Position numbers and translations under genes: made by a program. A stretch of 38,044 bases of DNA from assembly GCF_002095395.1 (NCBI RefSeq), contig NZ_MJEI01000062.1:1-38044 (forward strand). The letters are read 5' to 3'. Position 1 is the stretch's first letter. Each line of letters begins with the position of its first letter. This document shows positions 6,349-32,598 of the stretch, piece by piece. Under the pieces are notes generated by a model. It was given only the letters and a program-made list of their open reading frames with translations, had not been told where the DNA came from and ran no database searches. The stretch comes from Williamsia sp. 1135. GTDB lineage: Bacteria; Actinomycetota; Actinomycetes; Mycobacteriales; Mycobacteriaceae.

Positions 6349-6453
6349 TCTCGGTTCTCTGGAGGATCTCTGGGCGGCGGGTGACGATCGGACTGTGTGG
6401 TTCGGAGCGCTGCGGATGCGGGCTGTCGCCGCGCTGTCATTCTCATTCGGAAG

Positions 6454-7716: not shown

Positions 7717-7917
7717 TTATCCTCCATCGTCGCAGCACCGACGCGCTCAGACTCTATCGCGAACACAACAGGTAATGCAGGACTCGTTGAATCCGTCACT
7801 ATTGTGGTTTCCGGCCAGATCTTACGACTAGTGTTGGCTTGTTCTATCGCCGGGGGATGGAACGTAATTGTCCGGAATGCGCATTCGGCGTCGGGAATGA
7901 AGAAAGTGAAGCTTCAC
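7717..7917. promoter_or_regulatory. divergent promoter region of the two EPS operons
   Basis: This region separates the minus-strand GT4/sugar-phosphate transferase unit from the plus-strand flippase operon. It is less GC-rich than its surroundings around 7780-7880 and should hold promoters for both directions. No specific operator was recognised. Confidence 0.4.
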
Positions 7918-10616: not shown

Positions 10617-10625
10617 AAAACTGCG

Positions 10626-12650: not shown

Positions 12651-13819
12651 CCAGACCCATCGTCCTGGTCGAGTTCTCACCGTCAGGCGGTCTCTTCCAA
12701 TTCGCGGTGCAGCTGGGCGAGGCTCTCGCCCGCCGGGGTGAGCGCGTCATCCTTCTCACCGGTCCGAGCCCCGAGTTCACCTCGAGCCAGCCCGGCTTCA
12801 CCATCAAGTCGTCGCTGCCGACGTGGCATCCCGCCGACACCGAGGTGCTCTCGAAGCCGCTGCGACTCGCAAGGCGCGGCTTGCGGGCCGGGCAGCTGAT
12901 GGTGGCCTGGCTCGTCCTCGCAGTGGTGTTGCTACGCATCCGCCCCCGCGCGGTGCTCTGGTCGCATTGGCGATTCACCTTTGAACCCATGTTCGTGGTG
13001 CTCATCACCCACCTGGTCCGTAAGTCGACTTTTGGAATCGTTGCGCACGAACCGCTTCCGCGATCAGACGCCCGCGACACGAGCACGCCCAAGTCGGGCC
13101 GGCTGGTGGACGCCGCCTTCGCTGCGGCCTGGCGGCGCATGGACGTGGCCTTCGTGCTCGGACCTCGTACCCGGGACGTGGTGCTCGAGCACTTCGAACC
13201 CGGCGGCGACGTGGTCGTCATCCCACACGGGGACGAAGGTCTGCTGGTGACCGGCGATGACGCTGTGCCCGTGTCCGACACGGGTCCGGTGGCGCTCTTC
13301 TTCGGGACGTGGACGACGTACAAGGGCATCGACGTCCTGCTCGACGCGTTCGCTCTGGTGCGCAGGCAATTGCCCGCCGCCGAACTCGTACTCGCCGGGG
13401 CGGTCGGTGCCGACATCGATCATGCAACTCTGTTGCGCCGGGCCGCGGAGATCGGGAATGTCGACGCCAGAGCGGGTTACGTCGCAAAAGCCGATGTCGC
13501 CGGCATCGTGCAATCGGCACGGGTGGTGGTGACGCCGTACATCCGGGCGAGTCAGAGCGGCGTCGCCCACCTCGCATTCACGTTCGGGAGGCCGGTCATC
13601 GCCTCTGCGGTGGGGGACCTGCCGGACGTCGTCAGAGATGGGCAAACAGGCCTGTTGGTGCCTGCGGGCGATGCCGCCGCATTGGCCGCGGCGATGGTCA
13701 CCCTGCTCACCGATCCTGACCTCGCGGAGCGCCTGGGGTGCACCGGACGATCATTTTTGACCGAATCGTGGTCTGTGGCGGCCGATCGGATCGTATTGTC
13801 ACTGGAGGGGGTGTCATGA
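12647..13819 (+). CDS. GT4-like glycosyltransferase
   Basis: The protein has 390 residues and a GT-B fold. The start (VLVEFSPSGGLFQFAVQLGEALARRG) carries the Gly-rich acceptor-domain loop. The C-terminal half has ALFFGTWTTYKGIDVLLDAFALV, AELVLAGAVG, GYVAKADVAGIVQSARVVVTPYI and GRPVIASAVGDLPDVVRDGQTGLLVPAGD. The usual E-x7-E is replaced by ASQSGVAHLAFTFGRPV, which retains only the general shape, so the donor site may differ from its two neighbours'. ATG 12647 overlaps the polymerase stop, and the gene's own stop overlaps the next start. Longer in-frame starts would lie inside the polymerase gene and are unlikely. The sugar specificity is unknown. Confidence 0.85.
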   Translation: MTRPIVLVEFSPSGGLFQFAVQLGEALARRGERVILLTGPSPEFTSSQPGFTIKSSLPTWHPADTEVLSKPLRLARRGLRAGQLMVAWLVLAVVLLRIRPRAVLWSHWRFTFEPMFVVLITHLVRKSTFGIVAHEPLPRSDARDTSTPKSGRLVDAAFAAAWRRMDVAFVLGPRTRDVVLEHFEPGGDVVVIPHGDEGLLVTGDDAVPVSDTGPVALFFGTWTTYKGIDVLLDAFALVRRQLPAAELVLAGAVGADIDHATLLRRAAEIGNVDARAGYVAKADVAGIVQSARVVVTPYIRASQSGVAHLAFTFGRPVIASAVGDLPDVVRDGQTGLLVPAGDAAALAAAMVTLLTDPDLAERLGCTGRSFLTESWSVAADRIVLSLEGVS

Positions 13820-14823
13820 CCAACCCGGAGGCAGACATGGGCAAACACACAGTTCAGAAGACCTGGTGGTTCGGGCTCCATCCCAAATGGCACATCGCGG
13901 TGATACTCACGGTGGTCGCGGCAGTGGCCATCGCCACGGGAGCCTTCATCTTCCGAAGTCAAACCACCTCCGCCGGAGCAACTTTCGCCAACCCCTTTGC
14001 AAGCAACAGCCCCTTCAACACAACCATCGCCAGCAACGCCCAGATCGATCCGGCGAGCCAGGCAATGATTGCGCGTGCCACGAGGGACGGCCAGGTGTAC
14101 GCGTCGACCGTCGAGTTCGGTATCCCGATCTACGGTGCAGACCGACGGACACCGCGCTATACGGTGAACTGCACGATCACATACTGGGGTCCATGTCCGT
14201 TCGCGGGCAAGCAGGTTCCCATCCCGAACGGCGCCAGACCGCACAGCGGCAGCGATGGCGCGATGGTCGTCGTCGATCAGGGCGACAACAAGATCTACGA
14301 GTTCTGGCAGGCCCGGAACTCCGGCGGAAGGTGGACAGCATCCTTCGGGGCCGTCAACCCGCTGAACGGATCGGGCTGGGGTGGCGCGAGCACCGGCTCG
14401 GGTGCATCGCGGCTCGGTGGTGTCGTCCGGATCGCAGAGATCGAACGAGGCTCGATCCAGCACGCGCTTGTCGTGCAGAGCGATAACATCTGTGCTCGAA
14501 TATTCCGCAGCCCGGCGGTGAAGACGGACGGCAATTCCACGCGTCCTGACTGCCTGCCCGAAGGTGCGCGGCTCCGCCTGGACCCGACGCTCAACCTCAA
14601 CACGCTCAAACTGACTCCGGGCGAACGCACAATCGCCCGGGCGTTGCAACAGTACGGCGCCTACGTCATCGACATAGGTGGATCGCCGCTCAGCATGAGT
14701 TTCGAACTCGACACCCGGGCCCCGGCAGGATCGATCGGCCAGGTCTACGAAAGGGCAGGATTCAGGTGGGACTACGACGGGATGTCGGCGATTCCGTGGA
14801 AACGGTTACAAGTCATCAGATGA
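13816..14823 (+). CDS. membrane-anchored exported protein of unknown function in EPS operon
   Basis: The protein has 335 residues. A short cytoplasmic start precedes one membrane anchor (about 25-46). The rest is extracytoplasmic and begins near NPFASNSPFNTTI. Visible motifs are VEFGIPIYGADRRTPRYTV, VPIPNGARPHSGSDGAMVVVD (135-154), KIYEFWQARNSGGRWTASFGA, GASRLGGVVRIAEIERGSIQHAL and LPEGARLRLDPTLNL. Cys119, Cys127, Cys226 and Cys246 could form two disulfides. I recognise this pattern only as a recurring uncharacterised family. A polysaccharide-binding, lyase or hydrolase-like role is suggested by its place among EPS genes, not by any catalytic motif. Both ends overlap neighbours by ATGA. Confidence 0.75.
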   Translation: MTNPEADMGKHTVQKTWWFGLHPKWHIAVILTVVAAVAIATGAFIFRSQTTSAGATFANPFASNSPFNTTIASNAQIDPASQAMIARATRDGQVYASTVEFGIPIYGADRRTPRYTVNCTITYWGPCPFAGKQVPIPNGARPHSGSDGAMVVVDQGDNKIYEFWQARNSGGRWTASFGAVNPLNGSGWGGASTGSGASRLGGVVRIAEIERGSIQHALVVQSDNICARIFRSPAVKTDGNSTRPDCLPEGARLRLDPTLNLNTLKLTPGERTIARALQQYGAYVIDIGGSPLSMSFELDTRAPAGSIGQVYERAGFRWDYDGMSAIPWKRLQVIR

Positions 14824-15965
14824 CACGACCGCTCCGGGTACTGCTGTTGATCGATGCCTTCCGGATGGGCGGCGCCGAGACGCTACTGGCGCCGCTCGCC
14901 GTGGCCTTCCGGGACAGCAATGTCGAGATGGAGTTCGTCAGCGTGCTCGACGCCTCGGCGGACGCCGCGAAGACGAACGAGATCCTGACCGAGGCCGGGG
15001 TGGTCACCCGGGCGCTGGGCATCAAACGGTTGCTCGACCCCACCGCGATTCCCAAGGTGGTGCGGGAGATCCGTCGCGCGGACTTCGACGTCGTGCACGC
15101 CCATCTGGAGATGGCGACGACGCTCGCCGTTCCCGCTGCCGCCATCGCCGGCCGTTCCGCGGTCTGCACGTTTCACCACGTCGCGCGCCCACTGACGGGC
15201 CGCGAGGGCGCACGTGAGCGTCTCGCCGTCGCCGCTGCCGGCCACGCCTACCGCGCGCTGTTCGTCTCGCAGGCCTCTCGCGACTCGTTCCAGGAGATCT
15301 ATCGGCCCAAGGGTCTGCCGAGCAATTGGGACGTGATGCACAACGGGATCGACATCGGCAACTTCGTACCGGGGCCGGCAGATGCAGAGGTCCGCGCGGA
15401 ATTGGGCGGTACAGAGGGACCTTTGGTGGTCCTTCCCGCCGCATTCCGGGATTTCAAGGGTATTCCCAGCGCGATCCGCGCCTGGCCGCTCGTCCTTGAG
15501 CGCTTCCCGGACGCAGTCCTCTCGCTCGTCGGCGGGGGATCCGCCGAAGCCGAGTTGCGGGCGGAGGTCGCCGCGGCCGGGGTCGGTCAGAACGTGGTGT
15601 TCGCCGGGGTTCGGTCGGACATGCCGAAGGTCTACCGCGCGGCCGACGTCGTGCTGCTGCCGTCGATACACGGCGAGAACCTGCCGACCGTGCTGATCGA
15701 GGCCGCCGCGTCGGGCCGGGTCGTGGCAGCGTCTCGCACCGGGGGTATCTCCGACATCGTCGTACACGGTGAGACCGGCATGCTGTTCGAACCGAACAAT
15801 CCACGGGCCCTGGCCGATACGGTCATCGAGTTGCTCGCCGACCCGGGGCGTTGCCGAACGCTCGGAGAGGCGGCGGTCATCCGGGCGCGCTCCGAGTTCT
15901 CGGCGTCGTCCTGGGCGGAGCGGTTGTACGCCCTGTACGCCGAGGCCGCAGGCAAGAAGCGGTGA
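14820..15965 (+). CDS. GT4 glycosyltransferase
   Basis: The protein has 381 residues with the classic GT-B/GT4 layout. The N-terminal part has RVLLLIDAFRMGGAETLLAPLA and DVVHAHLEMATTLAV. The donor-domain part has VVLPAAFRDFKGIPSAIRAWPLV, LSLVGGGSAEAELRAEV, VVFAGVRSDMPKVYRAADVVLLPS and GENLPTVLIEAAASGRVVAAS, which contains the E-x7-E motif. It is a retaining cytoplasmic enzyme expected to extend the lipid-linked repeat unit. ATG 14820 overlaps the previous stop, and its own stop overlaps the next gene's GTG, so it is translationally coupled on both sides. Donor and linkage are unknown. Confidence 0.9.
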   Translation: MTRPLRVLLLIDAFRMGGAETLLAPLAVAFRDSNVEMEFVSVLDASADAAKTNEILTEAGVVTRALGIKRLLDPTAIPKVVREIRRADFDVVHAHLEMATTLAVPAAAIAGRSAVCTFHHVARPLTGREGARERLAVAAAGHAYRALFVSQASRDSFQEIYRPKGLPSNWDVMHNGIDIGNFVPGPADAEVRAELGGTEGPLVVLPAAFRDFKGIPSAIRAWPLVLERFPDAVLSLVGGGSAEAELRAEVAAAGVGQNVVFAGVRSDMPKVYRAADVVLLPSIHGENLPTVLIEAAASGRVVAASRTGGISDIVVHGETGMLFEPNNPRALADTVIELLADPGRCRTLGEAAVIRARSEFSASSWAERLYALYAEAAGKKR

Positions 15966-17215
15966 GCGCGGGCCCGGTGCAGATCGTGTACCTGGTATCA
16001 CGATTTCCGCGTACCTCAGAGACTTTCATCGTTCGTGAGGTGGATGCGCTGTCGCGCCTGGGTCGCTTCGACATCTCCCTGCGGTCGCTCTTTCCCTCTC
16101 CGGACGCCGCCGTGCACGAGGTGTCCAGGCGGTGGACGGACCGGGTCCGGCGCCCCTCGGGTGTCGATGCCCTGCTCGCGTTCGGTTGGGCGCTCGGCCG
16201 CCATCCGCTGGCGCTGATGACCGTCCTGGCACTGGTCGTCGCCGGTCACCTCCGATCTCCGCGGCTGCTTCCGCGAGCCCTGGTGACGGTCGTGCTCGCC
16301 TGCGCGCATGCGAGAGATATCGGGCGGACGACTCCGAACGCCCACATCCACGCGCACTACGCCACGTATCCGGCTCTCGCAGCCTGGGTCTGCCACCGAT
16401 TGATCGGCGTCACCTACAGCTTCACCGCCCATGCGCATGATCTGTATGTCGATCAGTCCATGCTCTCTCGCAAGATGGCCGAGGCGACGTTCGTGGTGAC
16501 CATCTCGGAGTACAACCGGCGGTTGCTGAATCTGCGAACCGACGCAGAATCCGCTGTGCACGTGGTGCATTGCGGAATCGAGACCTCCAATTACCCGTTC
16601 CGTCCCCGGGAGCCGGCCGCGGCGGGGCCCGTGAGGGTTCTCTGCGTGGCATCTCTGCAGGAATACAAGGGGCACGAGATCCTGCTGCGGGCGCTGGCAG
16701 CCGGTGGAACGGGTGTCGATCGCATCGAACTCGACCTGATCGGCGACGGACCGCTCCGTGAGTCCCTCACCGAACTCGCCCGCGACCTCGGTCTCGGGGA
16801 ACGGGTTCGATTCCTCGGTGCTCGCACCGAAGTCTTTGTCGCCGAGAAGCTCGCGTCCACCGATGTGTTCGTGCTGCCGAGCGTCGTGGCCGCGGACGGC
16901 CAGATGGAAGGGCTCCCGGTCGCGCTGATGGAAGCGTTGGCATCAGGGGTGCCCACCGTGTCGACGTCGTTGTCCGGCATCCCGGAGATCATCGTGGACG
17001 AGGTGACCGGGGCGCTTGCCCGGCCCGGCGATGTCGACGATCTGCGGCGGGCGCTCGAAGCCACCATCGCCAGGGGCGGCGAGGCGACCCGCTTGGCGGA
17101 TGCAGGCAGAGAACTGGTTCAGCGTGAGTTCGAGTTGGCTGTCACCCTCGGTGAGCTGGCGGCGCTGTTCGACCACTACCTCGGGACCGATCAGGTTCGT
17201 CGACCGAAACGATGA
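15962..17215 (+). CDS. GT4 glycosyltransferase (WcaL-like)
   Basis: The protein has 417 residues. The opening IVYLVSRFPRTSETFIVREVDAL is typical of the colanic-acid WcaL-like subgroup. The middle has HIHAHYATYPALAAWVCHRLIGVTYSFTAHAHDLYVD. The donor half has VLCVASLQEYKGHEILLRAL, LDLIGDGPLRESLTELARDLGL, VRFLGARTEVFVAEKLASTDVFVLPS and EGLPVALMEALASGVPTVSTSLSGIPEI, with E-x7-E. GTG 15962 overlaps the previous stop and ends the plus-strand EPS operon. Its last 74 bp run antisense to the end of the AcpS-like gene. It likely adds a late sugar of the repeat unit, though order cannot be read from sequence. Confidence 0.9.
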   Translation: MSAGPVQIVYLVSRFPRTSETFIVREVDALSRLGRFDISLRSLFPSPDAAVHEVSRRWTDRVRRPSGVDALLAFGWALGRHPLALMTVLALVVAGHLRSPRLLPRALVTVVLACAHARDIGRTTPNAHIHAHYATYPALAAWVCHRLIGVTYSFTAHAHDLYVDQSMLSRKMAEATFVVTISEYNRRLLNLRTDAESAVHVVHCGIETSNYPFRPREPAAAGPVRVLCVASLQEYKGHEILLRALAAGGTGVDRIELDLIGDGPLRESLTELARDLGLGERVRFLGARTEVFVAEKLASTDVFVLPSVVAADGQMEGLPVALMEALASGVPTVSTSLSGIPEIIVDEVTGALARPGDVDDLRRALEATIARGGEATRLADAGRELVQREFELAVTLGELAALFDHYLGTDQVRRPKR

Positions 17216-17603
17216 TCACCGCCATCGCGTGACAATCGGTGTGTGACAACGACAATTGCCCGAACTGCCAGCCCAGCGCCCGGGCTCGCGCAGCGACAGA
17301 ACCTGCCAGATTCACGAACGGCACACCACGGCGCAAGACCACCTCGATCTCGCGCGGGGGTGTTGCCATCTCGGGGTCGGCGAATGTCTTGACCACTGCT
17401 TCCATCGCCGCGAACCGTGCAGCCATACGTTCGATACTGCCTGCGCAGTCCTGGAGTTCGTTCTCGGTGAAGACACGTTGCAGAAAGCGTGAACCGAACG
17501 CCGACACGGAGTCACGGATGTCGGAAATGGCCACCACATCGCAACCGATGCGGGTGCCGGGCGGCGGTGTGAGCGACAGGTGCGCGTCGGCGGGGATCAT
17601 CAC
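17142..17603 (-). CDS. AcpS-like 4'-phosphopantetheinyl transferase
   Basis: The protein has 153 residues. By family it transfers phosphopantetheine from CoA to a carrier-protein serine. AcpS-type motifs are present in order: RIGCDVVAISDI (metal-binding Asp22), RFAAMEAVVKTF (Glu68, Lys72; the usual AAKEA reads AAMEA) and LSLSHTDCHAMAVII. The length fits AcpS. GTG 17603 overlaps the stop of the GH2-like gene; ATG 17600 is an equally good start. It is the last gene of the carrier-protein operon, so its likely substrate is the small carrier protein encoded at its head. A housekeeping AcpS elsewhere in the genome would be expected. The 3' end overlaps the convergent GT4 gene by 74 bp. Confidence 0.8.
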   Translation of the reverse strand: MMIPADAHLSLTPPPGTRIGCDVVAISDIRDSVSAFGSRFLQRVFTENELQDCAGSIERMAARFAAMEAVVKTFADPEMATPPREIEVVLRRGVPFVNLAGSVAARARALGWQFGQLSLSHTDCHAMAVIIVSVDEPDRSRGSGRTAPPAHRG

Positions 17604-20017
17604 GACTCACGTTCTCGGTCGTCCACCACAACCCGGATGGGCAGGTGATGGTCGATCGAAGCCACTGTGCCCGACGGCTGCTCGCGGGCACCATCGTGTG
17701 GCACCAGCCGGACGACGTACGCCGACCCTCCGGCGAGATGGAAGAAGTTGTCGGACGGTCGCCAGCCCGCCAGAGTGATCTCCACATAGCGCAGGCACAC
17801 CGATGTCTGCAGCGTCAGATACCAATCGCCCGCGACCTGATGCGCGGCGGCGGTGAGGTCGGTACGGGCCTGCTCCGGCCTCGGCGTCACGACCAGGACG
17901 TCGCGCGCCACGACGTCGCCGTCCATGCGGAGGGAGACCTCGACGGCATCGGCGACCGCGGTCCCGAAGCCGTAGGCGTGGGACAGATCGGTGAATCGAC
18001 CTGTCAGATCAGCGTCGTGGAACGTGACCGACGAGTGCGGCTCGACGACCACGGCAGTGTCGGCGTCGGCGACGCGGTGTCCCGATGAGTTGGTCGCGAT
18101 CAACGCGAGCGTGCCCGCCAAGGGAGTCGGGCCGTCGTTGTAGACGTCGATGCGGACACCCGACAGGCCCTGGGACGTCGCGGTCACAGCGATGGGGGCC
18201 CACACCCTGGACAGCGCATCGAGTGGGGCCTTCGGATCGCCGTCCACGTCGAGTAGACCCCACCCGGGTCCCGGGCGTAGATCCCGGGCCGAGAGCACCA
18301 ACGCCCCGTCGCAGCGTGAATCCTCCCGACGCCACCAGGAGTAGCAGGCGATCATCGCCTCGGCGATCGCCGCACGACCGAGCTGCAGATAGCGGTCAGG
18401 GTCGAGCCTGCGAACCAGAAAAGGATTGACCGCGAAGACTTCCGACACGTAATGGTCGCGAACGTCCTCGAAATCCCAGGACGATCCGCGGTCTCTGGGG
18501 ACCCCGGTCTTCCAGTCGGGCGCATGCCCGGCCACCTGCGCGCCGGAGAAGTGGCGGTCGACGGCGGCCGGCGATGGCGGGATCGCAAACGCCAGGCACT
18601 CCGCGGCGAACCGGACGCCCGCATGTCGCACGTCAAGTAACGGACGAAGGTATCCGCCGACCCCGAACCAATGACTGACACCGGAATCCGGCCTGATCGC
18701 CAGATCATCGGATCCGGCGGGAGCCGAGGGGCTGGCAGGAACGTAGGGTACGTCCGCCTCGTCGGCCACCACCGTCGGCAAGACGGTGTGCAACAGTTCG
18801 ATCCACCGTTGCGCCGGGTCCAGACCGAGCATCTCGGGTTGTTGGATCGTCTCGTTCCCGCCGCTGACCACAGCAAGTGCAGGGTTTCCCGACACCGTTC
18901 GCAGCACGTCCTGCAGCTCCCTGACGAGGAGGTCGCAGACCTCCTCCGGGGGATCGAATGTCGCCTGCATCACGTCCTGCCACACCAGGATTCCGTGTTC
19001 GGCGCACAGCGCCCACAAGTCGGGACCGGCGTAGGTGGTGCCCCCAGGGATCCGGATCATGTTCGCGCCCGCGGCAGCGAGGTGTCCTAGTTGCCTGCGC
19101 AGAGCATCGGTCACGGGGGAGGCTGCGTCCTGCACCGGGTCCATCCAGACAGCACCGCGGGCGAAGATCGCCACGTCGTTGACACGGATGCCGAAGCCAC
19201 CGTCGGAGGTGGTGGCCGTGACGGTGCGAAAGCCGAAGGTGCGTTGATCAACTGCAGCCTCGTCCACCAGGGTGGTCACCGTGTACAGCGATTGCTCGCC
19301 GTAGCCGCGTGGCCACCACAGGTGTGGGTCGGGCACCGTCACCGCGACGCGGTAGCGCCCGGTCGCATCGGCGTGAACCGACGCCCGGGTGACCTCCCGA
19401 CCTCGGTACGAGATGGCCACGCTGACCGGAGTGTCGGGGGGTAACACGCCGGCGATGTCGACCCGCCCGCTCGCTGCCGCGGGGCGTACGACCATCTCCC
19501 GGGGTGCCGACTCGGGTACGAAACGCACTGGGCGCCAGAACCCGACCGGGGCTGGTGGTCCCTGGTAGATGGGTGCCCGCCCGATCAGGGAGGTGCGCAC
19601 CCATCGCATGCCCTGCGCCGCGATGAGCGATGAGCGCCAGCGGCCGCGGGGTCGACGTTTCGCGAGAGCTCGGTCGAGCGAAGGGAGGTGGACCGACAGC
19701 TGATGCCGGCCGGCGGGCACGTGGACCAGCACCGGCAGGAACATCGACTCCACCGCGGCGACGGGTTGACCGTCGATGAACACGGTGGCGGGTGCGGTCA
19801 CGCCGTCGAACGCGATGGTCCTGGGGGTGGACGACGAGAGAGAGGTCTGAAACCACCAGTCCCGCGCGTCGATCGCCTCGTCCGAGCCCCGTATCGCCCC
19901 GACGGTGGTGGCCTCGCCGATCTGTGCCGCGTCGTCCCACCGTGCGCCGAGTTCGCCGGGCGTCGTCGCGGCGCCGGGCTCGGTGCCGACGAGCCGCCAG
20001 CCGGCGACAGTCGTCAT
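17600..20017 (-). CDS. GH2/beta-mannosidase-like protein, cytoplasmic
   Basis: The protein has 805 residues with the glycoside hydrolase family 2 layout. A sugar-binding-like beta domain spans about 50-170 (RDWWFQTSL, TVFIDGQPVAAVESMFLPV). An Ig-like domain spans about 180-265 (DPHLWWPRGYGEQSLYTV), and the TIM barrel about 275-560. In the barrel, NMIRIPGGTTYAGPDLWALCAEHGILVWQD precedes VSGGNE with the predicted acid/base Glu389, and FAAECLAF gives a possible nucleophile Glu473. The C-terminal part has LSARDLRPGPGWGLLDVDGDPKA and another beta domain. No signal peptide is seen. ATG 20017 overlaps the DUF1839 stop; longer in-frame starts are Arg-rich and inside that gene. Its place in an aminoacyl-carrier operon is odd for a hydrolase, so the substrate is open. 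Confidence 0.85.
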   Translation of the reverse strand: MTTVAGWRLVGTEPGAATTPGELGARWDDAAQIGEATTVGAIRGSDEAIDARDWWFQTSLSSSTPRTIAFDGVTAPATVFIDGQPVAAVESMFLPVLVHVPAGRHQLSVHLPSLDRALAKRRPRGRWRSSLIAAQGMRWVRTSLIGRAPIYQGPPAPVGFWRPVRFVPESAPREMVVRPAAASGRVDIAGVLPPDTPVSVAISYRGREVTRASVHADATGRYRVAVTVPDPHLWWPRGYGEQSLYTVTTLVDEAAVDQRTFGFRTVTATTSDGGFGIRVNDVAIFARGAVWMDPVQDAASPVTDALRRQLGHLAAAGANMIRIPGGTTYAGPDLWALCAEHGILVWQDVMQATFDPPEEVCDLLVRELQDVLRTVSGNPALAVVSGGNETIQQPEMLGLDPAQRWIELLHTVLPTVVADEADVPYVPASPSAPAGSDDLAIRPDSGVSHWFGVGGYLRPLLDVRHAGVRFAAECLAFAIPPSPAAVDRHFSGAQVAGHAPDWKTGVPRDRGSSWDFEDVRDHYVSEVFAVNPFLVRRLDPDRYLQLGRAAIAEAMIACYSWWRREDSRCDGALVLSARDLRPGPGWGLLDVDGDPKAPLDALSRVWAPIAVTATSQGLSGVRIDVYNDGPTPLAGTLALIATNSSGHRVADADTAVVVEPHSSVTFHDADLTGRFTDLSHAYGFGTAVADAVEVSLRMDGDVVARDVLVVTPRPEQARTDLTAAAHQVAGDWYLTLQTSVCLRYVEITLAGWRPSDNFFHLAGGSAYVVRLVPHDGAREQPSGTVASIDHHLPIRVVVDDRERES

Positions 20018-20979
20018 ATCGCGACGGACTCGGCCACGATGTCGACCCCACGCGTCCAGGCCCGGCCCATCGCCATGAGCAGGTCGTCGACCTCGACAGT
20101 CCGGCCGCGGGCGGCTCGAGCCATCTTGAATTGAACGGCTTTCGCGCCTCGGGCGACGTCGAGGAAACACGGCGCTGCGTTCGCCGCCCCCGGTGCCAGA
20201 TCGGCGCCGAGATGGGAACTGAGGTCGGCGGCGAGCTCGGCGGTCGCGCCACATTGCCGAAGCGTCGCAAACGCCCACAGATGGAAGGTCTCCATTCCGG
20301 CGGCCGGCAGCCAGCCGACCGCGGAGCGGACGTCGCCCGCGAGCCGATCGATCGGATTGCCCGGAGCGCGCCGTGAGAGGTGTTCTCGGACAATCGGTAA
20401 CAATGCATCGGGCTCTTGCCGATCGGGAAACCAGCGGATCTGCTCGACGTAGGGCAACAGCCCAGGCCGCGGACTGTCGCCCAGGCCGAAGATGCCCGCG
20501 AAGTCGTCACCGGCCAGTGAGTGGGTCCCGGAGTTGTGGATATAGGTGAGCTGCCGCTGCTCTCGGTCGAACCGGACCGGCACGATGGTCGTCTTGACGT
20601 GGTTGCGGTGATAATCGGTGCCCGCGGTGTCCGGGAGCCACCAGCTGTCGACCTCGACGGTGTGCAGCAACTGCCGCCCCGGACCGCTTTCGACTGTGTC
20701 CACCAACGACATCCAGACGTTCTCCTCGGTGACCTCCAGGCCGTACAGACGGCGGAGATCCTCCTGGGTCACCTTCAGAAAGGTCCACTGGCCGCCGTCG
20801 TGGTCGGCGGAGAGGGCGCAGGCGAACGCCGGAACCGGGTCGCGGCCGAGGGCGTGGAGCAACTCGGCCCAGAGGTCGATGTAGCAGTTGGTCTCCGGCC
20901 AGATGCGGTCTCCGTCATGGACCGGATGTGGGCCGGGACCGTCGGCCGAGATGATCAGAGGTGCGGCGCCGGTGTTCAC
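20014..20979 (-). CDS. DUF1839 family protein
   Basis: The protein has 321 residues. The stretch IWPETNCYIDLWAELLHALGRDP (about 27-48), with TDYHRNHVKTTIVP (121-134) and YIHNSGTHSL, fits DUF1839, a family I know to occur beside amino acid:[carrier protein] ligases. Cys32 with His127 or His148 could form a papain- or BtrH-like catalytic pair. That would suit an enzyme taking the aminoacyl group off the carrier, but this is inference. The C-terminal half is helical (FHLWAFATLRQCGATAELAADL). GTG 20979 overlaps the carrier-protein stop, and the gene's stop overlaps the next start. It acts in the cytoplasm, with no membrane segment or signal. Confidence 0.8.
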   Translation of the reverse strand: MNTGAAPLIISADGPGPHPVHDGDRIWPETNCYIDLWAELLHALGRDPVPAFACALSADHDGGQWTFLKVTQEDLRRLYGLEVTEENVWMSLVDTVESGPGRQLLHTVEVDSWWLPDTAGTDYHRNHVKTTIVPVRFDREQRQLTYIHNSGTHSLAGDDFAGIFGLGDSPRPGLLPYVEQIRWFPDRQEPDALLPIVREHLSRRAPGNPIDRLAGDVRSAVGWLPAAGMETFHLWAFATLRQCGATAELAADLSSHLGADLAPGAANAAPCFLDVARGAKAVQFKMARAARGRTVEVDDLLMAMGRAWTRGVDIVAESVAI

Positions 20980-21221
20980 GCAACACCGTCCAGGAGTTTG
21001 TTCACCACCGTTGCAAGACTCTGGACGGACGAGAAAGTGGCCTTCTTCAAGTCCTCGTCGGGGAACTCGACATCGAACTCGTCTTCGAGGGCAAGCATCA
21101 CATTGACACTGGCGTGCGAGGTCAATCCCAATTCGTACAAATCGGCCTCGGAGGTGACCGATTGTGGGTCGACTGACAACCGGCCATGGTTCGCAAGAAC
21201 TTCGCGAATACGCTCTTCCAC
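20976..21221 (-). CDS. small carrier protein (aminoacyl-carrier type)
   Basis: The protein has 81 residues. It has the four-helix acyl-carrier shape with phosphopantetheine attachment at Ser35 in LYELGLTSHASVNVMLALED. The usual DSL motif is replaced by TSH. The next part, EDEFDVEFPDEDLKKATFSSVQSL, is the acidic helix II/III region. This motif style matches the carrier proteins loaded with glycine or alanine by amino acid:[carrier protein] ligases in Bradyrhizobium and Agrobacterium, rather than fatty-acid ACP. GTG 21221 is chosen because AGAGGGA lies 6-8 nt upstream; an ATG at 21272 would add 17 unlikely residues. It is the first gene of the minus operon and divergent from the flavoprotein-ligase operon. 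Confidence 0.88.
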   Translation of the reverse strand: MEERIREVLANHGRLSVDPQSVTSEADLYELGLTSHASVNVMLALEDEFDVEFPDEDLKKATFSSVQSLATVVNKLLDGVA

Positions 21222-21413
21222 TGCAGTCCCTCTCGTGAATCGTCCGCACGAGACAGGACCTGCACTCCGCAAAACGATTGAGTCGACGATGTTGATAGTG
21301 CTTCTTACCCCCGAGTCTCGTAGATTACAGTATCTCCGGGGGGATTTGACCTGTCGCAGTTTTGGCGGGTACCAAGGCGATTACGTGCGCCGACAATGGG
21401 ACAGGACCACATC
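21222..21413. promoter_or_regulatory. divergent promoter region of the carrier-protein system
   Basis: About 190 bp separate the carrier-protein operon (minus) from the flavoprotein-ligase-hydrolase operon (plus). The middle is AT-richer (around 21270-21325). Both operons probably fire from here, so the two halves may be co-regulated. I could not fix -35/-10 boxes or an operator by eye. Confidence 0.4.
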
Positions 21414-22577
21414 GTGACCGAATCCATTCGTGCCGGTTCGACCGGTGCCGAGCTCGACTACGAGAAAGTCGTCATTGTTGCGGCCGCAGCCGCGCACGAA
21501 GTTGATCGTGACGCTCGTTTTCCGCATGAAGCCGTTGCGGCCATGCGGGACAACGGCCTTCTCTCCTGCTCCCTGCCGACCGCACTGGGCGGACGATCGA
21601 CGAGTATCTCGGATCTGGCGACCATGGCCCGCGCTCTCGGCGCCGGCTGTAGTTCGGCGGCAATGGTATTTGCCATGCACCACACGCAAGCGCTGTCGTT
21701 GCGATGGCACGGAGCGCACGGCGACATCGCAGAACTGACCCGGTCGATCGCCGCCGAGGAGGCGTTGCTGGCGTCCGCGACCACCGAGATCTCCACCGGC
21801 GGGGATGTCCGGTCATCCGGTTGTGCCGTGATACCGGACGGGGCCGAGGTGGTGCTTGAGAAGAACGCACCGGTCATCTCCTACGGCGAGTACGCGGACT
21901 ACATCTGTGCCACCGCGCGGCGCGGTCCGGACAGCCCGCCCAGCGACCAGGTGCTCATCGTCTGTCCGCGGTCTGACATCGAGCTCGAAAAGACCGGCAC
22001 CTGGGACGTGCTCGGGTTCCGTGGGACGTGCAGCCCCGGGTTCATGTTGCGGGCCAGGACGGTGCCGTCGAATGTGCTGCCTGTCGACTACGGGACCATC
22101 TCGTCGCACACCATGCTCCCGTCCTCGCACACCCTGTGGGCATCTGTCTGGCTCGGGATCGCGGACGCAGCGGTCGCGAAGGCCAGGGTTCAGGTACGCG
22201 CTGCGGCAAGACGGAACGGCGGGGGAGCCACGGACCGTACCGCCGCGTTTGCGGACCTGCTCGTCATCCATCAACGCTTCGAGGCGTCCGTTGCCCAAGA
22301 GATCCGCCGGTACGAAGACTTTCTCGCGTCCGGGGAGCTGGAGACCACCGTCGGATTCGCCATCGCGATGAACAACCTGAAACTCAATGCCTCGCAGGCA
22401 GTCGTAGACGTCGTGTCCGCTGCGCTCGCCATGACCGGTATCAACGCATACCGGGAGGATCATGTCGCGTCGATGGGACGACTGCTCCGCGACGCCTTTG
22501 GGCCGCAGCTCATGGTTTCGAACGAACGTATCCGCGCCAACAATGCTCAATTGGTACTTGCCTACAGGGGACGATGA
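21414..22577 (+). CDS. acyl-CoA dehydrogenase-like flavoprotein
   Basis: The protein has 387 residues and the three-part acyl-CoA dehydrogenase fold. The N-terminal helical part has FPHEAVAAMRDNGLLSCSLPTALGG. The middle flavin-side beta part has ASATTEISTGGDVRSSG, DYICATARRG and GTWDVLGFRGTCSPGF. The C-terminal helical part ends in GRLLRDAFGPQLMVSNERIRANNAQLVLAYRG. It would oxidise a substrate held on CoA or, given its neighbours, on the carrier protein, possibly the bound aminoacyl group. GTG 21414 is preferred because AGGA stands 7 nt upstream; ATG 21396 is in frame but has no ribosome-binding site. The stop overlaps the ligase start (ATGATGA). Confidence 0.82.
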   Translation: MTESIRAGSTGAELDYEKVVIVAAAAAHEVDRDARFPHEAVAAMRDNGLLSCSLPTALGGRSTSISDLATMARALGAGCSSAAMVFAMHHTQALSLRWHGAHGDIAELTRSIAAEEALLASATTEISTGGDVRSSGCAVIPDGAEVVLEKNAPVISYGEYADYICATARRGPDSPPSDQVLIVCPRSDIELEKTGTWDVLGFRGTCSPGFMLRARTVPSNVLPVDYGTISSHTMLPSSHTLWASVWLGIADAAVAKARVQVRAAARRNGGGATDRTAAFADLLVIHQRFEASVAQEIRRYEDFLASGELETTVGFAIAMNNLKLNASQAVVDVVSAALAMTGINAYREDHVASMGRLLRDAFGPQLMVSNERIRANNAQLVLAYRGR

Positions 22578-23530
22578 TGACAGCGATCGACCAATCCGAA
22601 CAGCACACCGCGCTGGAGAACGCGCGTCGCGAATTTCGTGACCAACTCATCGACGCGGATCTGCTCGTCCCCTCGGGAATCGCGGGGCTTTACGGGCGCG
22701 GCGCGGTGTTCGAGGACCTCATCGACGGCATCGACCGGGTGGTGCAACGGGCCGGTTCGGCGGCACACGGCACGGGCATTCGGCGGCTGCGTTTTCCGCC
22801 GGTGTTCCCGCGGGATTCATTCGAGAAGACCGATTACATCGCGTCGTTTCCGAATCTGACCGGGGCCATCTCGACATTCGAAGGCGACAACAAGAAGCAC
22901 CGTGCACTGCTCGGTGATCGCGACGCCGGCCTGGACTGGGATCACCACCTCACCCCGGCGGGCACGATGCTCGTGTCGGCCGCGTGCCATCCCAGCTACT
23001 CCGCTCTGACGGGCACGCTGGCGCAGGGCGGCACAACGATGGACATCTACGGATACTGCTTCCGGCATGAACCGGCGATCGATCCGGCGCGGATGCAGGC
23101 CTTCCGTATGCACGAGTTCGTGCGAGTCGGGACGCCCGAACAAGCCCAGCAGCACCGGGATTCGTGGGTGCCGCGTGGTCTGCAGGTCCTCGAAGACCTG
23201 GGGCTCTCGGCCGAACCGGTCGCGGCGAACGATCCGTTTTTCGGTCGGGTCGGAAAAATGCTGGCTGCCAACCAACTCGAGGAGAGTCTCAAAACCGAAC
23301 TCGTCGTCCGTTTGTACGACGACCTCGACGAGGGGACCGCGGTCGTCTCGTGCAACTGTCACCGTGACCATTTCGGGGTCACCTTCGACATCCGGACAGA
23401 CGACGGCGAACCGGCACACAGTGCCTGTGTGGGTTTCGGAATGGAACGCATCGCGCTGGCCATGCTCCGTACCCATGGTCTCGATGTCGCCCGATGGCCC
23501 GCGCGGGTCGTCGCAGTGCTCGAAGGATAA
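22574..23530 (+). CDS. amino acid:[carrier protein] ligase (class II aaRS-like)
   Basis: The protein has 318 residues. The family is a truncated seryl-tRNA-synthetase-like class II enzyme that lacks the tRNA-binding arm. It activates an amino acid with ATP and loads it on the phosphopantetheine of a small carrier protein. Visible signatures are LVSAACHPSYSALTG (Cys138), motif 2 FRHEPAIDPARMQAFRMHEFVRVG (Arg164; Glu181), VVSCNCHRDHFGVTFDI, and motif 3 SACVGFGMERIALAML (Cys285, Arg292). Cys138, Glu181 and Cys285 match the Cys-Glu-Cys zinc site of atypical SerRS and these ligases. The length fits the family. Known members prefer Gly or Ala; specificity here is untested. ATG 22574 overlaps the flavoprotein stop; ATG 22577 is possible. 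Confidence 0.9.
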   Translation: MMTAIDQSEQHTALENARREFRDQLIDADLLVPSGIAGLYGRGAVFEDLIDGIDRVVQRAGSAAHGTGIRRLRFPPVFPRDSFEKTDYIASFPNLTGAISTFEGDNKKHRALLGDRDAGLDWDHHLTPAGTMLVSAACHPSYSALTGTLAQGGTTMDIYGYCFRHEPAIDPARMQAFRMHEFVRVGTPEQAQQHRDSWVPRGLQVLEDLGLSAEPVAANDPFFGRVGKMLAANQLEESLKTELVVRLYDDLDEGTAVVSCNCHRDHFGVTFDIRTDDGEPAHSACVGFGMERIALAMLRTHGLDVARWPARVVAVLEG

Positions 23531-23533
23531 AGC

Positions 23534-25282
23534 GTGAGCGACCTGCCGGAAACAACGTCATTGCCAACCTATTTCGGGCCCAAAGCAGCTCCCTTGTTCG
23601 GGGTCGTGCACCTACCCGCGGACGCACAGGTGCGTGGGGGTGTGGTGATGTGCCCGCCGCTGGGTAAAGAGCAGGCCGACACCACCAGGGGCATGAAGTA
23701 CCTCGGCGAAGTGTTGGCACGCAGCGGTTTCCTCGTTCTCCGCTTCGACTATGCCTGCACCGGCGAGTCGTCCGGCTCGCAAGAATCGCCGGACGCAGCG
23801 CAACGCTGGCTCGACAGCATCGACAGTGCGGTGAGTTACGTGCGCGAGCACACCGACAGCGTGTCCCTCGTCGGGCTTCGAGCAGGGGCGCTGCTCGGCG
23901 GCCAGAACCAGGACCTCCTGCAGACCCTCGACGCCCTGGTCCTGTGGGACCCAGTGGCCAAGGGGCGCCACTACGTCCGCGGACAGATGGCGCTGCACAA
24001 TATGTCGATCGGGATGGTCGATGCCGATGATCCCCGGGTGCATCTGGTGGGCACCTCGCTGGCCCAGAGCGCAGCCGACGCCTTGGCTCGCATGCACCTG
24101 ACCGCGCAGACCCTCGTCGAGGGACCAAAGGCGTTGCTGTGCGGGATACGCGACACCGACGTGAGTGGACGATTCGCGACCGAGCTGGAAGCTGCGGGTG
24201 CCGAGGTGTTCCCCATCGGTGATCCAACGCCTTTCGTGGCCTCGCACACCGTGTACTTCGAGTTCCCTGTCGCCGTGATCGAGCGAATCGCGCAGTGGCT
24301 CGATACCACCGTCGGGGCCCAAACCCGCAGTGCGGTCGTCGCGCCCTCGAACCACGCTGTACTCCCGGACAGTCCGGCGGGTCCCGCCATCAGAAAGAGC
24401 ATTCACACCCTCGACGACGGGACGATCGTGTGGATCACCGAGCCCGACAGTGAGCGGCCTGCGAGCGCGCCGTTACTCGTGGCCCATTCGACCGCCAACG
24501 ACATCCGCACCGGGCCGGCACGGCTGTGGGCTGATCTCGCGGAGCTGGTCGCGCGCCGAGGTGGCCGGGCCGTTCGCTATGACCGATACGGGGTCGGGGA
24601 GACGTCACCGGTAGATCCGGTCGACGACTTCTCGCCCCTGCACACAACCGAATCGATCGGCCAGGCGCGAGCGGTCACCGAGTTTGCGACGGTGGGTGTG
24701 CCGTCACGGGTCGTTCACGCCGGCGTGTGCTCAGGGTCATGGCTGGCTGCGCACCTCGGAACCCGGGGAGCCCAGTCCCGGGTCGTGATGATCAATCCGT
24801 TGATGTGGCGACTACGCACAACAACATTCGACACCACGAAAGCGTCTGCGATCGGTGCCGGCCCCTCGGTGTCCGAGGTGGTCGAGTCCACGGGGCCCGA
24901 CAACAGGCTGACAGCACTGCAGATGAAGTTGCGCGAGAGGTTCGGACCTCTCCTGCGAGCCCACATGCCGTACCCGGTCGTGAACCTGCTGGGGGCCGCC
25001 GGCGTGGTGCAGGCCCCGAAAATATTGCTTGCTGCGCTCGCAAAGCGCGGGGTAACACCTGATCTGCTCTTCTCGCCCTGGGATTACGAGAGATTCACCC
25101 TCAACCGTGGCCCTCGGGCGATAGAGGCACTCGGACGTCGTGGCCGACGCCCGAACGTGCGGGTGAGTGCCTCTGGCGATCATCCGGCCATGCACTGGCT
25201 CATCCGCGAGTCCGTGGTCGAGGTGTGCCTGGACGCACTCGGTCTCACAACGGAAGGTCTGAACACGCTGGAAGAGGCCTAA
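23534..25282 (+). CDS. tandem alpha/beta hydrolase, exosortase-associated type
   Basis: The protein has 582 residues and is two alpha/beta-hydrolase domains in one chain. Domain 1 (about 1-260) has GGVVMCPPLGKEQADTTRG and LRFDYACTGESSG. At the nucleophile elbow it reads GLRAG (Arg116), so no Ser or Cys is available. Domain 2 (about 285-575) has VRYDRYGVGETSP and the elbow AGVCSGSW, placing Cys399 at the nucleophile position. SGDHPAMHWL supplies a likely His. Similar paired hydrolases occur in exosortase-linked EPS loci as separate genes. Here it starts 3 nt after the ligase stop. It could release or transfer the acyl/aminoacyl group as a thioesterase; that is inference. It is cytoplasmic, and converges on the EAL gene with a 14-bp gap. 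Confidence 0.75.
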   Translation: MSDLPETTSLPTYFGPKAAPLFGVVHLPADAQVRGGVVMCPPLGKEQADTTRGMKYLGEVLARSGFLVLRFDYACTGESSGSQESPDAAQRWLDSIDSAVSYVREHTDSVSLVGLRAGALLGGQNQDLLQTLDALVLWDPVAKGRHYVRGQMALHNMSIGMVDADDPRVHLVGTSLAQSAADALARMHLTAQTLVEGPKALLCGIRDTDVSGRFATELEAAGAEVFPIGDPTPFVASHTVYFEFPVAVIERIAQWLDTTVGAQTRSAVVAPSNHAVLPDSPAGPAIRKSIHTLDDGTIVWITEPDSERPASAPLLVAHSTANDIRTGPARLWADLAELVARRGGRAVRYDRYGVGETSPVDPVDDFSPLHTTESIGQARAVTEFATVGVPSRVVHAGVCSGSWLAAHLGTRGAQSRVVMINPLMWRLRTTTFDTTKASAIGAGPSVSEVVESTGPDNRLTALQMKLRERFGPLLRAHMPYPVVNLLGAAGVVQAPKILLAALAKRGVTPDLLFSPWDYERFTLNRGPRAIEALGRRGRRPNVRVSASGDHPAMHWLIRESVVEVCLDALGLTTEGLNTLEEA

Positions 25283-25296
25283 GACATCGTCGGCGG

Positions 25297-26562
25297 CTAG
25301 GACGCGTCGATCGTGATCTCGTCGGCCGGCGCGGGTTTCCCGAACAGGTAACCCTGCCCGTGGGTGAACCCGAGCTCTCGCAGATGCGCGATCTGGCCCG
25401 GGTCTTCGACACCCTCGGCAACGGTCGCCATCCCGAGTGAGCTGGAGAGAGCACAGACGGCCTTGACGATGCTGTGCATGGTGTTGTCGTCGGCGCCCAC
25501 CTTCGCGATCAGGGAACGGTCGATCTTCACCACCTGCACCGGCTGCTCGACCATGTACCGCAGCGCCGCGAACCCGGTGCCGAGGTCGTCGACGCAGACG
25601 GTGCACCCCAGTGCGTCGAGCTCGATGAGGGTCGCCGATGCGGGCGAACCGACCTCGATGAGGTCTCGTTCGGTGACCTCGACCCACAGTGCGTCGGCGG
25701 GCACACCCGTGGACTCCAAGATTGCGGCAACGAGTTCGGGCAGCGTCCGGTCTTGTAACTGCCGGGCAGAGAAATTGACCGAGACGAACAGGCCGGGGGT
25801 CGTGGATGCGGCCCGCCAGATCGCGAGCTGCTCCAGCGCCGCCTGCACTCCCCAGCGGCCGATCGGGACGATGAGCGACGTGGCCTCGGCAGCGTCGAGG
25901 AAGTCGTGGGGTTTGCGGACCTCGTCGGCCACCTGCCACCGCAGCAGCGACTCGTAACCGACGGTCTTCATCGTGGTGATGTCGATGATCGGTTGGTAAT
26001 AGAGCGCGAAGTCGGTACCGACCGCGTTCGACAATTCGGTGGTCCTCGACACCTCGGTCTGCAATCGGGCGATCGAGTCAGGGGTCGCGTGCGCCACCGT
26101 GTCGCCGTCGACGATCGCGTAGTGGACCGCGGAGATCGCTGCCTGGACGAGGTCCGCCACGTCGGTGGCGGTGGTGACCACCGAAGAGATGGCCAGACCC
26201 TGGCAGGCCGGGACGAAGTACCCGCCGCCGTCGATTTTGAGTTGTCGCGTCAGACACTCGGAGATCAAGCGTTCCACCGTTTCCGGTGCGATGTCCCTGA
26301 CGTCGAAACCCACGGTGAGAAGGTCGTTGTAGGGTCCCACCGACACCGTGCAGGCGCGCCCGAGCATCTCGACCAGCGCACTGTGGGCCGCAGGCCTCAT
26401 CTTCTCTGACGGATCCCAGCCGACCGCGCCTGCGAGGAGACCGGTCGGGTCGAGGCACACCACCGAGACGCCAAGGAAGTCGAAGTCGAGGTGAGCGGTG
26501 CAAGCGCGGATCTCCGTGATTCCGTCGCGGGCGGACCCGGGCGACGATGGGGGGAGCGCCAT
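25297..26562 (-). CDS. EAL-domain c-di-GMP phosphodiesterase with degenerate N-terminal GGDEF-like domain
   Basis: The protein has 421 residues. By family it linearises cyclic-di-GMP. The N-terminal about 170 residues look like a decayed GGDEF fold without signature (LLTVGFDVRD, ADLVQAAISAVHYAIVDG). The EAL domain (about 175-418) has the signature as ESL (204-206) in VGYESLLRW. It retains the other catalytic residues: Asn263 (SVNFSARQL), Glu295 (VEVTERD), Asp325-Asp326 (VDDLGTGF), Lys346 (VVKIDRS), Glu383 (VAEGVED) and Gln403 (HGQGYLFGKP). Activity is therefore likely. ATG 26562 is chosen for AGGAAGG about 5 nt upstream; the upstream frame is Arg-rich. It is divergent from the membrane GGDEF gene, so synthesis and breakdown sit side by side. 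Confidence 0.88.
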   Translation of the reverse strand: MALPPSSPGSARDGITEIRACTAHLDFDFLGVSVVCLDPTGLLAGAVGWDPSEKMRPAAHSALVEMLGRACTVSVGPYNDLLTVGFDVRDIAPETVERLISECLTRQLKIDGGGYFVPACQGLAISSVVTTATDVADLVQAAISAVHYAIVDGDTVAHATPDSIARLQTEVSRTTELSNAVGTDFALYYQPIIDITTMKTVGYESLLRWQVADEVRKPHDFLDAAEATSLIVPIGRWGVQAALEQLAIWRAASTTPGLFVSVNFSARQLQDRTLPELVAAILESTGVPADALWVEVTERDLIEVGSPASATLIELDALGCTVCVDDLGTGFAALRYMVEQPVQVVKIDRSLIAKVGADDNTMHSIVKAVCALSSSLGMATVAEGVEDPGQIAHLRELGFTHGQGYLFGKPAPADEITIDAS

Positions 26563-26842
26563 GCCCAACCTTCCTGCCCACCTGCGGAGCCGACACCGGG
26601 TCGGGCTCCCATTACACGAGCTGGGTCGCCTTGAGAATACCTCCAACATACGAATGCGCTCTCTGCGCATGGTCGTGATCCCACCGGCTGTCTACACTGC
26701 ATGGAGCCGTGCGACCCGTGCTGGGTGCACCATCGAGTTTCGTGAAGCCGCCGCGGGATACGATCGTGCAAACCCATCTTCGGCATCGACAAATGTGCGG
26801 TGGGTTCGGGCTTCTCTCCACGGGAATGGACAGGCTGCGACA
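26563..26842. promoter_or_regulatory. divergent region between EAL and GGDEF genes
   Basis: This stretch of 280 bp should hold promoters for both c-di-GMP genes. The frame of the GGDEF gene stays open through it, so a longer N-terminus cannot be excluded, but the residues look non-coding. No clear operator was seen. Confidence 0.3.
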
Positions 26843-28018
26843 GTGAGTTCAAGGTATTTCGGACGCTTCGACGCGCGTTCGACTGCCGTACTCATCAGCA
26901 CCTTCGGCGCAATCGGGTTGCCGGTCTTCGCTTTGATCGCGCCGTCGCTCATCGTCGCCGGAGGATTCAAGTATCTCACGGTGATCTGGCTGTTCTCGGC
27001 CATAACATTCGCGATCACACTTTATGTGGGGCGGTTGACCGATCGGCAATTCGCGATACTCGGTTTCGGCGGAATGGTCGGAGTCGCCTGGGCCGCCTAT
27101 CTCGTGACAGATCCGGCCGTATCGCGAGCAATTGTCGCTCTGCTGGCGGCCATTCCCGCGATCGCGGCGATGGCCTCTTCGCTTCGGGTGACCATCTCGT
27201 TCGCGGTGTTCGCCATGGGCCTCGCCGTGTTCCTGTCGACTCTCAATGCCACGTCGTGGGTCGCTGCGATGGTTGCCGGTGGTGCCTCGGTGACCACCGT
27301 CCTGGTACCGGTTTTCATGGTTGGTGCACTACGCCGATCGCTCGACTTCGCGCTGTCGCGCGTGGCGAAACTGGGTGACACCGATCCGCTCACTGGAATC
27401 CTCAACCGGCGTGGATTCCTCAACAGCAGCAGTCGTCTCCTGGAATGGATCGTCGCGCACGGAAAGTGCGTGGGCTTCATGATGATCGACATAGACGATT
27501 TCAAGAACGTCAATGATGCCCTCGGCCATGCAGCCGGGGACGCGGTGTTGGTGGACGCTGTCGCGAAGATCGAGAGCGCGGCGCCGCCCTATGCTCTCCT
27601 CAGCCGATTCGGCGGCGAAGAGTTCGTCGTGATGTACGCCTCCGACAATCGAGAAGAATTCTTCCAGCTAGCCGAAAACATTCGTTTGGCCGTCGCGGAG
27701 CAATGTCCTGTCACGATCAGTGTCGGCGCCGTGCAAGCGCCGTTGGGAAAAGCCTCCGACGGAACACCGAATATCGACAAGGTCATCGATTCCCTCACCC
27801 GAATGGCCGACCAGAGCGTCTACTACGCGAAGAACGGTGGCCGCAACAGAGTGGTGTCCATGGTGGCCCCGGCGATCCAATGGACCCCAGGGCCACCATC
27901 TGAGCCGACCGTCAGGATCGTGGACACGACCCGCAACGTCGGCGTGTTGGCACTGATGCGTCGGTTCAACGACAGAGATCAGGCGGCTCCCGCGCGCGAC
28001 GGCGAGAACAGACTCTGA
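26843..28018 (+). CDS. membrane-bound GGDEF diguanylate cyclase
   Basis: The protein has 391 residues. Six or so hydrophobic helices (about 14-165, MASE-like) are followed by a GGDEF domain (about 178-345). It has DPLTGILNRRGF, MIDIDDFKNVNDALGHAAGD (Asp215, Asp217) and an intact GGEEF (257-261), so it should make c-di-GMP at the membrane. There is no RxxD I-site in the usual place. A tail of about 45 residues after VYYAKNGGRNRVV is unstructured. GTG 26843 is tentative; no strong ribosome-binding site is visible and an ATG lies upstream at 26654. The 3' end overlaps the convergent GNAT-like gene by 40 bp. Confidence 0.82.
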   Translation: MSSRYFGRFDARSTAVLISTFGAIGLPVFALIAPSLIVAGGFKYLTVIWLFSAITFAITLYVGRLTDRQFAILGFGGMVGVAWAAYLVTDPAVSRAIVALLAAIPAIAAMASSLRVTISFAVFAMGLAVFLSTLNATSWVAAMVAGGASVTTVLVPVFMVGALRRSLDFALSRVAKLGDTDPLTGILNRRGFLNSSSRLLEWIVAHGKCVGFMMIDIDDFKNVNDALGHAAGDAVLVDAVAKIESAAPPYALLSRFGGEEFVVMYASDNREEFFQLAENIRLAVAEQCPVTISVGAVQAPLGKASDGTPNIDKVIDSLTRMADQSVYYAKNGGRNRVVSMVAPAIQWTPGPPSEPTVRIVDTTRNVGVLALMRRFNDRDQAAPARDGENRL

Positions 28019-32464: not shown

Positions 32465-32598
32465 GTAATTGCTAAAACTTAGTACCTCAAATCGGGATCG
32501 TCTACAGCAAATTACGAGTATCGTCCCTCGCACCAGTTCTCCGGTCTCGGGGCCCGTTGCATTGGGCCAGGCAAAGCTGCCAGCGAAAAGGGTGGACC

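Follow-up and report, generated by a model that had tools for sequence, protein, structure and literature searches.

What does a set of carrier-protein genes do beside an exopolysaccharide (EPS) locus? The question is raised by a 38,044-nt stretch of the 5.98-Mb genome of Williamsia sp. 1135, which was analysed whole and is called the window here. Positions 17142-25282 hold seven genes in two divergent strings whose starts lie 174 bases apart. The minus strand carries, in order, genes for a carrier protein, a DUF1839 protein, a GH2 protein and an AcpS-like enzyme, and the plus strand those for an acyl-CoA dehydrogenase-like (ACAD-like) flavoprotein, an amino acid:[carrier protein] ligase and a hydrolase. 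The 174 bases between the carrier and flavoprotein genes (21222-21395) presumably contain the promoter region. A preliminary description of the window had reported these genes as tightly coupled, and all seven were found at the places it claimed. Four junctions have a 4-base overlap (GTGA at AcpS-like/GH2 and DUF1839/carrier, ATGA at GH2/DUF1839 and flavoprotein/ligase), and a 3-base gap separates ligase and hydrolase. Our best explanation of the set, held with moderate confidence, is a carrier-protein amide-coupling pathway of five steps.

To compare gene neighbourhoods of the ligase, as the preliminary description had proposed, loci were fetched with a six-sequence ligase alignment. The best 80 of 583 confirmed loci were taken, so the sample leans to near relatives of the window ligase. 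These 80, six further stretches and the window made up 87 loci, which were scanned with profiles built from the window proteins. The carrier was found in 83, the flavoprotein in 80, the hydrolase in 60, DUF1839 in 55, GH2 in 51 and the AcpS-like enzyme in 39. Clustering of neighbouring open reading frames (ORFs), made independently of the window genes and with 16 taxon groups assigned by hand, returned the same seven families in 10 to 16 of the 16 groups; its counts per family fall below the profile counts because clustering splits families. The next families were GT4 (22 loci, 10 groups) and Bac_transf (17 loci, 9 groups), and the rest reached at most 6 groups. The order carrier, flavoprotein, ligase, DUF1839, GH2, hydrolase is retained in many loci of Pseudomonadota, Planctomycetota and Acidobacteriota. 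The side with carrier, DUF1839, GH2 and AcpS-like enzyme is inverted, as in the window, in Williamsia, Mycobacterium, Gordonia asplenii and Enemella.

The strictest linkage was between DUF1839 and GH2. Among the 63 loci in which the sequence extends 6.5 kb or more to either side of the ligase (full loci; the other 24 were set aside), 36 have both genes, 27 have neither and none has one alone. As a check independent of the ligase, DUF1839 was sought in 296 Actinomycetota genomes and in 249 genomes of the phylum of an Azospirillum, giving three and seven hits, respectively; the window and the Azospirillum centre are among these ten by our own choice. GH2 lies beside DUF1839 in 10/10, and the ligase falls within the 1.5-kb flank of DUF1839 in eight, the other two (the window and G278) having it 1.6 and 2.4 kb off. 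The ligase also occurs without DUF1839: four of the seven genomes with ligase-like hits (G204, G107, G128 and G292) had no DUF1839 hit. Recurrence in other phyla shows that the gene set is more than a chance neighbourhood, and together with the steady linkage it rules out a chance assembly. The view that these genes form one pathway is supported by this linkage.

The carrier and the ligase are well defined. The carrier (81 aa, 20976-21221, minus strand) scores 104.3 bits against a curated cut-off of 72 for NF005480, and Ser35 of its GLTSH motif is invariant (100%) across an alignment of 83 carriers, gaps excluded. The SerRS-like ligase (318 aa, 22574-23530, plus strand, ATG at 22574) scores 439.8 bits for NF005479, above the curated cut-off of 357, and matches Bll0957-type PDB chains at 3.3e-71 (3mey) and 1.9e-72. 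The Bradyrhizobium Bll0957 ligase (3mey, 4h2w) belongs to the same family and aligns over 36-321. In an 86-sequence alignment (gaps excluded) Cys144, Glu187 and Cys291 are conserved at 100%, 96% and 100%, and they align with the Cys, Glu and Cys of crystal chain 4h2w, so that the Cys-Glu-Cys site described earlier holds. This corresponds to the zinc site of the ligase family. It is strongly inferred from family membership that the ligase loads an amino acid on the carrier, as had been claimed. Its closest relatives among the matches listed are from Williamsia limnetica (97%) and Williamsia sp. 1138 (96%). The accessible part of one report (PMC10888616) lists Bll0957 among the changed proteins of a Bradyrhizobium phaR mutant, together with the acyl-CoA dehydrogenase Bll0958, whose number follows next. 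One locus (L015, genome G139) has two distinct ligases with ~9 kb between them and a separate carrier gene for each; the flavoprotein, DUF1839 and GH2 accompany one only.

The AcpS-like 4'-phosphopantetheinyl transferase (PPTase; 153 aa, 17142-17603, minus strand) matches PF01648 at 41.5 bits, above the gathering score. It falls below the cut-offs of the AcpS-type NCBIfam equivalogs and above that of the domain model TIGR00556. It is the probable dedicated activating enzyme of the carrier. The window proteins also exceed the gathering scores of PF00550 (PP-binding), PF08893 (DUF1839), PF02771 (Acyl-CoA_dh_N) and PF00703 (Glyco_hydro_2), the last three confirming the flavoprotein, DUF1839 and GH2 assignments of the preliminary description.

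The protein on which the amide-coupling reading turns is DUF1839 (321 aa, 20014-20979, minus strand; PF08893 345 bits against a gathering score of 22.5). Its sequence found no solved structure at E<=1 alone, and as a profile its best was E 0.24. Its structure model has a predicted local distance difference test (pLDDT) score of 95, and the best structural matches by Foldseek were CcbD, AziU3 and CtaG. In the model, the match to carrier-dependent condensing enzymes spans nearly the whole length. CtaG (closthioamide) and BtrH (butirosin) are acyltransferases. At the sequence level, 11/44 DUF1839 proteins matched BtrH_N at E<=1 (best 8.7e-4), with an hhalign probability of only 56%. Cys32 is invariant (54/54), is the first residue of a modelled helix (32-43) and aligns with BtrH_N Cys21; Thr/Ser130, Thr/Ser131 and His148 are the other conserved site residues. 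The DUF1839 triad is thus Cys-(Thr/Ser)-His, compared with Cys-His-Glu in CcbD of the lincosamide system (CcbD/LmbD) and, as suggested by the variants Cys11, His128 and Asp144 in PDB titles, Cys-His-Asp in CtaG. This swapped site was already in print in 2023, in the part of the source available (PMC10318531), and is confirmed here in 54 DUF1839 sequences. Near the C-terminus, Lys280 (53/54) and Arg288 (53/53) lie on the last-but-one helix and Arg/Lys293 (50/53) just beyond, positions read without residue-level superposition on CcbD; in CcbD an Arg-rich C-terminal region binds the carrier. The model predicts that DUF1839 is a papain-fold condensing enzyme that takes the aminoacyl group from the carrier, which would supply the transfer enzyme anticipated earlier. 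The systems differ in loading: the lincosamide carrier is loaded by an A-domain, and the window carrier would be loaded by a ligase resembling an aminoacyl-tRNA synthetase (aaRS). Elsewhere in one genome of the survey (that of L110; G000:C103:4560-4961) a BtrH_N-type protein occurs, possibly a second carrier-to-amine acyltransferase.

The partner of DUF1839 is the GH2 protein (805 aa from the ATG at 20017, 17600-20017, minus strand). It scores 28 bits against 23 for PF00703, and its nearest solved relative is the beta-mannosidase 5n6u (4.4e-27), predicting a beta-mannosidase type. In a 49-sequence alignment Glu404 is conserved at 97% and Glu488 in 49/49 (820-aa numbering, from 20062); motifs and the beta-mannosidase match predict these two as the catalytic pair. 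Read from the ATG at 20017, no signal peptide is apparent by hydropathy, so the protein is probably cytoplasmic. That it is an unrelated EPS-degrading enzyme is unlikely, given its strict pairing with DUF1839.

The flavoprotein (393 aa, 21396-22577, plus strand; PF02771) certainly has the acyl-CoA dehydrogenase fold: its model has a pLDDT of 93 and matches both dehydrogenases and monooxygenases. Its profile found a dehydrogenase best (1.6e-25), with the monooxygenases DnmZ (7e-21) and KijD3 (5e-20) following. Acyl-CoA dehydrogenases have an invariant acidic base; Asp355 lies at or beside that position, and Asp or Glu is found there in just 56/75 sequences. No flavin reductase gene is among the seven widely conserved neighbour families. 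The chemistry may be that of a dehydrogenase or of a monooxygenase. In a Mycobacterium record (L032, 8781-9955) the flavoprotein gene is split in two overlapping frames, which reflects a broken gene or a sequence error.

The hydrolase (582 aa, 23534-25282, plus strand) had been described as a tandem enzyme. Its two-part layout stands, and the predicted catalytic residues are in the C-terminal half only. There, Cys399 occupies the nucleophile elbow in 58/58 sequences, position 517 is Asp or Glu in 52/55 and His550 is conserved at 100%, gaps excluded; the N-terminal elbow is degenerate (Arg in 48/60, Ser in 2/60). From these alignments only the C-terminal half looks catalytic. Searches with this half by itself reached no lower E than 0.024 among solved structures and gave no Pfam hit at E<=1. 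The C-terminal halves of two relatives (L059 and L078) match Abhydrolase_6 above cut-off, and that of L078 also DLH, so the alpha/beta-hydrolase fold stands. With Cys as its nucleophile, the enzyme could transfer acyl groups or cleave thioesters. The protein shares N-terminal similarity and an EPS-type context with exosortase A-associated hydrolases 1 and 2, from which it differs in having its catalytic half C-terminal, with Cys. It is neither of them by score, being below the TIGR03100 and TIGR03101 cut-offs (66 vs 202.75 bits for TIGR03101).

The preliminary description had also placed the product on an EPS or glycolipid intermediate. The EPS locus it reported was found to the left of the cluster (4948-17215, both strands), with Bac_transf (4948-6348) and a glycosyltransferase (6454-7716) on the minus strand and, on the plus strand, a Wzx-like gene (7975-9894), a Wzy-like gene (10626-12650) and three glycosyltransferases (12647-13819, 14766-15965 and 15926-17215). 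Across the 87 loci any EPS-type marker occurs in 36 and Bac_transf in 17, the window being scanned over its whole 38 kb. EPS markers accompany 22/36 full loci bearing DUF1839 vs 6/27 without it. A control, made for Bac_transf alone, used 26 of the 80 genomes, picked after the marker scan and before copy counts. With 1 to 6 Bac_transf matches per genome, six of the 26 have one within the fetched +-10 kb of the ligase vs 0.34 expected at random (P 8e-7, uncorrected for relatedness); two Williamsia loci (L018 and L020) were scored as misses, their Bac_transf being ~17 kb off if contig numbers match. An EPS role is likely in this organism. As a general rule, an EPS-only role is rejected because of the operons that, in incomplete gene tables, stand alone in Azospirillum sp. 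B510 and Mycetohabitans endofungorum. The claimed use on EPS is partly supported, with the linkage above on one side and these two operons on the other.

Collectively, these results suggest the following route. The AcpS-like enzyme would attach phosphopantetheine to Ser35 of the carrier, and the ligase would use ATP to activate a small amino acid, for which precedent points to Gly or Ala, and load it. The flavoprotein may then oxidise the carrier-bound group. DUF1839 would accept the aminoacyl group on Cys32 and hand it on to an amine, on the model of CcbD, which couples carrier-bound proline to an amino-octose. The fold, the strict GH2 pairing and the EPS linkage make an amino sugar the probable acceptor. 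In a speculative fifth step, GH2 might trim or free the sugar part and the Cys-type hydrolase might transfer or clear carrier-bound acyl groups. In this organism the conjugate probably supplies or modifies the neighbouring EPS, and in others it may exist as a free metabolite. Tentatively, the cluster may represent a widespread third route to amino acid-amino sugar amides, in which an aaRS-derived ligase charges a free carrier, the flavoprotein modifies the bound amino acid, the swapped-site (Cys-Thr/Ser-His) papain-fold DUF1839 couples it to the sugar amine of a glycoside and the partner GH2 trims the product, a glycoconjugate class not yet isolated.

The locus joins a known but unsolved kind of gene cluster. 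In its accessible part, a 2010 note in proof (Biol Direct 5:48; PMC2922099) describes a SerRS paralogue with a carrier protein, a redox enzyme, probably a monooxygenase, a conserved uncharacterised ORF, a glycosidase and liposaccharide genes, and proposes that the ORF couples the amino acid by an amide to an amine of a cell-surface sugar. The general idea of the preliminary description thus has a printed precedent. Here a DUF1839 protein with a modelled fold takes the place of the ORF, and the hydrolase and the strict pairing of DUF1839 with GH2 come as additions; the ORF of the note is Atu2574, which may itself be a DUF1839 protein. According to excerpts of a 2022 review (PMC9437257), it is still unknown what the amino acids on these carriers are for. 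Among the matches listed in the open-licence literature, no title or abstract opening gives a product for the cluster, and no DUF1839-CcbD link was found. What is new here is DUF1839 in the place of the ORF in these loci, its model-based likeness to CcbD, the GH2 pairing, the Cys-type hydrolase and the numbers for spread and EPS linkage. The CcbD link turns the 2010 guess into a question directly testable in vitro. If correct, the pathway would account for a gene set conserved in Actinomycetota, Pseudomonadota, Planctomycetota, Acidobacteriota and further phyla, and would offer a role for DUF1839, a Pfam family that has none assigned. It would also imply that there are amino acid-sugar conjugates still to be seen, some probably in exopolysaccharides.

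Several observations weigh against the amide-coupling explanation. The Foldseek TM-scores of DUF1839 to its relatives are moderate (0.49-0.64, rmsd 5-7), and AziU3, one of the top matches, is not known as an amide condensing enzyme. Thr/Ser130 (54/54) fills the His column of BtrH_N and His148 comes later; without the CcbD/BtrH His at its canonical place, DUF1839 may not catalyse the same reaction. The 80-locus sample was selected by similarity to the window ligase. Neither DUF1839 nor GH2 is present in 27/63 full loci. No EPS marker is seen in 14/36 DUF1839-bearing full loci, and in the incomplete gene tables of Azospirillum sp. B510 and Mycetohabitans endofungorum no annotated EPS operon comes within 15 kb of the six-gene operons.

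These marker-free loci and stand-alone operons would be expected if the product were a small free metabolite (a signal, antibiotic-like or stress compound) outside any polysaccharide, EPS genes being frequent neighbours only through a shared tendency of the two cluster types to accumulate in variable regions. CcbD stems from an antibiotic pathway, as do CtaG and AziU3. We consider this explanation somewhat unlikely; the excess of Bac_transf near the ligase speaks against it. Tsukamurella has its carrier, PPTase and ligase genes within a run of EPS genes, with none of the other four annotated within 12 kb, and the Mycetohabitans operon itself has a lipid A aminoarabinosyltransferase and an LTA-synthase-family gene within 15 kb. 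ABC, the sole transporter family named among the neighbours, is rare (5 loci, most small families being without annotation).

A less probable alternative reverses the roles, with DUF1839 a hydrolase or editing enzyme that strips the amino acid from the carrier, or performs another transfer through its swapped triad, and the Cys-type hydrolase doing the coupling. The triad order unlike that of CcbD/BtrH, seen in the alignment and in the available part of PMC10318531, would suit this, as would the conserved Cys399-Asp517-His550 and the occurrence of the hydrolase without DUF1839 in 19/63 full loci (the reverse in 9/63). Against this, it is DUF1839 whose fold matches carrier-dependent condensing enzymes over nearly its full length, whereas searches with the hydrolase (solved structures, Pfam) showed no condensing-enzyme relative. 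That the genes feed non-ribosomal peptide synthesis, with the amino acid as a building block, as the ligase discoverers proposed according to the accessible text of PMC2922099, is very unlikely: one neighbour family (family 9; 9 loci, 6 groups) has an A-C-PCP protein as its sole annotated member, but no condensation domain occurs in the window set (Pfam) or among the seven widely conserved families, and that text argues against the role too. The A-C-PCP protein (L016, 3789-7055) adjoins a distant ligase, and distant ligases may serve other pathways.

Several features around the cluster are recorded here. Two proteins of the EPS locus have no Pfam match above cut-off: that at 9891-10616 is, by eye, chain-length-regulator-like, and that at 13738-14823 recurs among the 87 loci solely in L018-L021. 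Cyclic di-GMP genes flank the region, with two GGDEF genes at 2622-4925 to the left of the EPS genes and an EAL and GGDEF pair at 25297-28018 to the right of the cluster; the pair is retained in L018-L021. Further right are a protein above the Rv1355c-family cut-off, with a ThiF/E1-like part fused to an Acg-like FMN part (29129-31258), an adhesin-like protein of 1284 aa with tandem-95/VCBS-type repeats (32557-36411) and, close to the right end of the window, an IS630-family transposase above cut-off (36440-37582).

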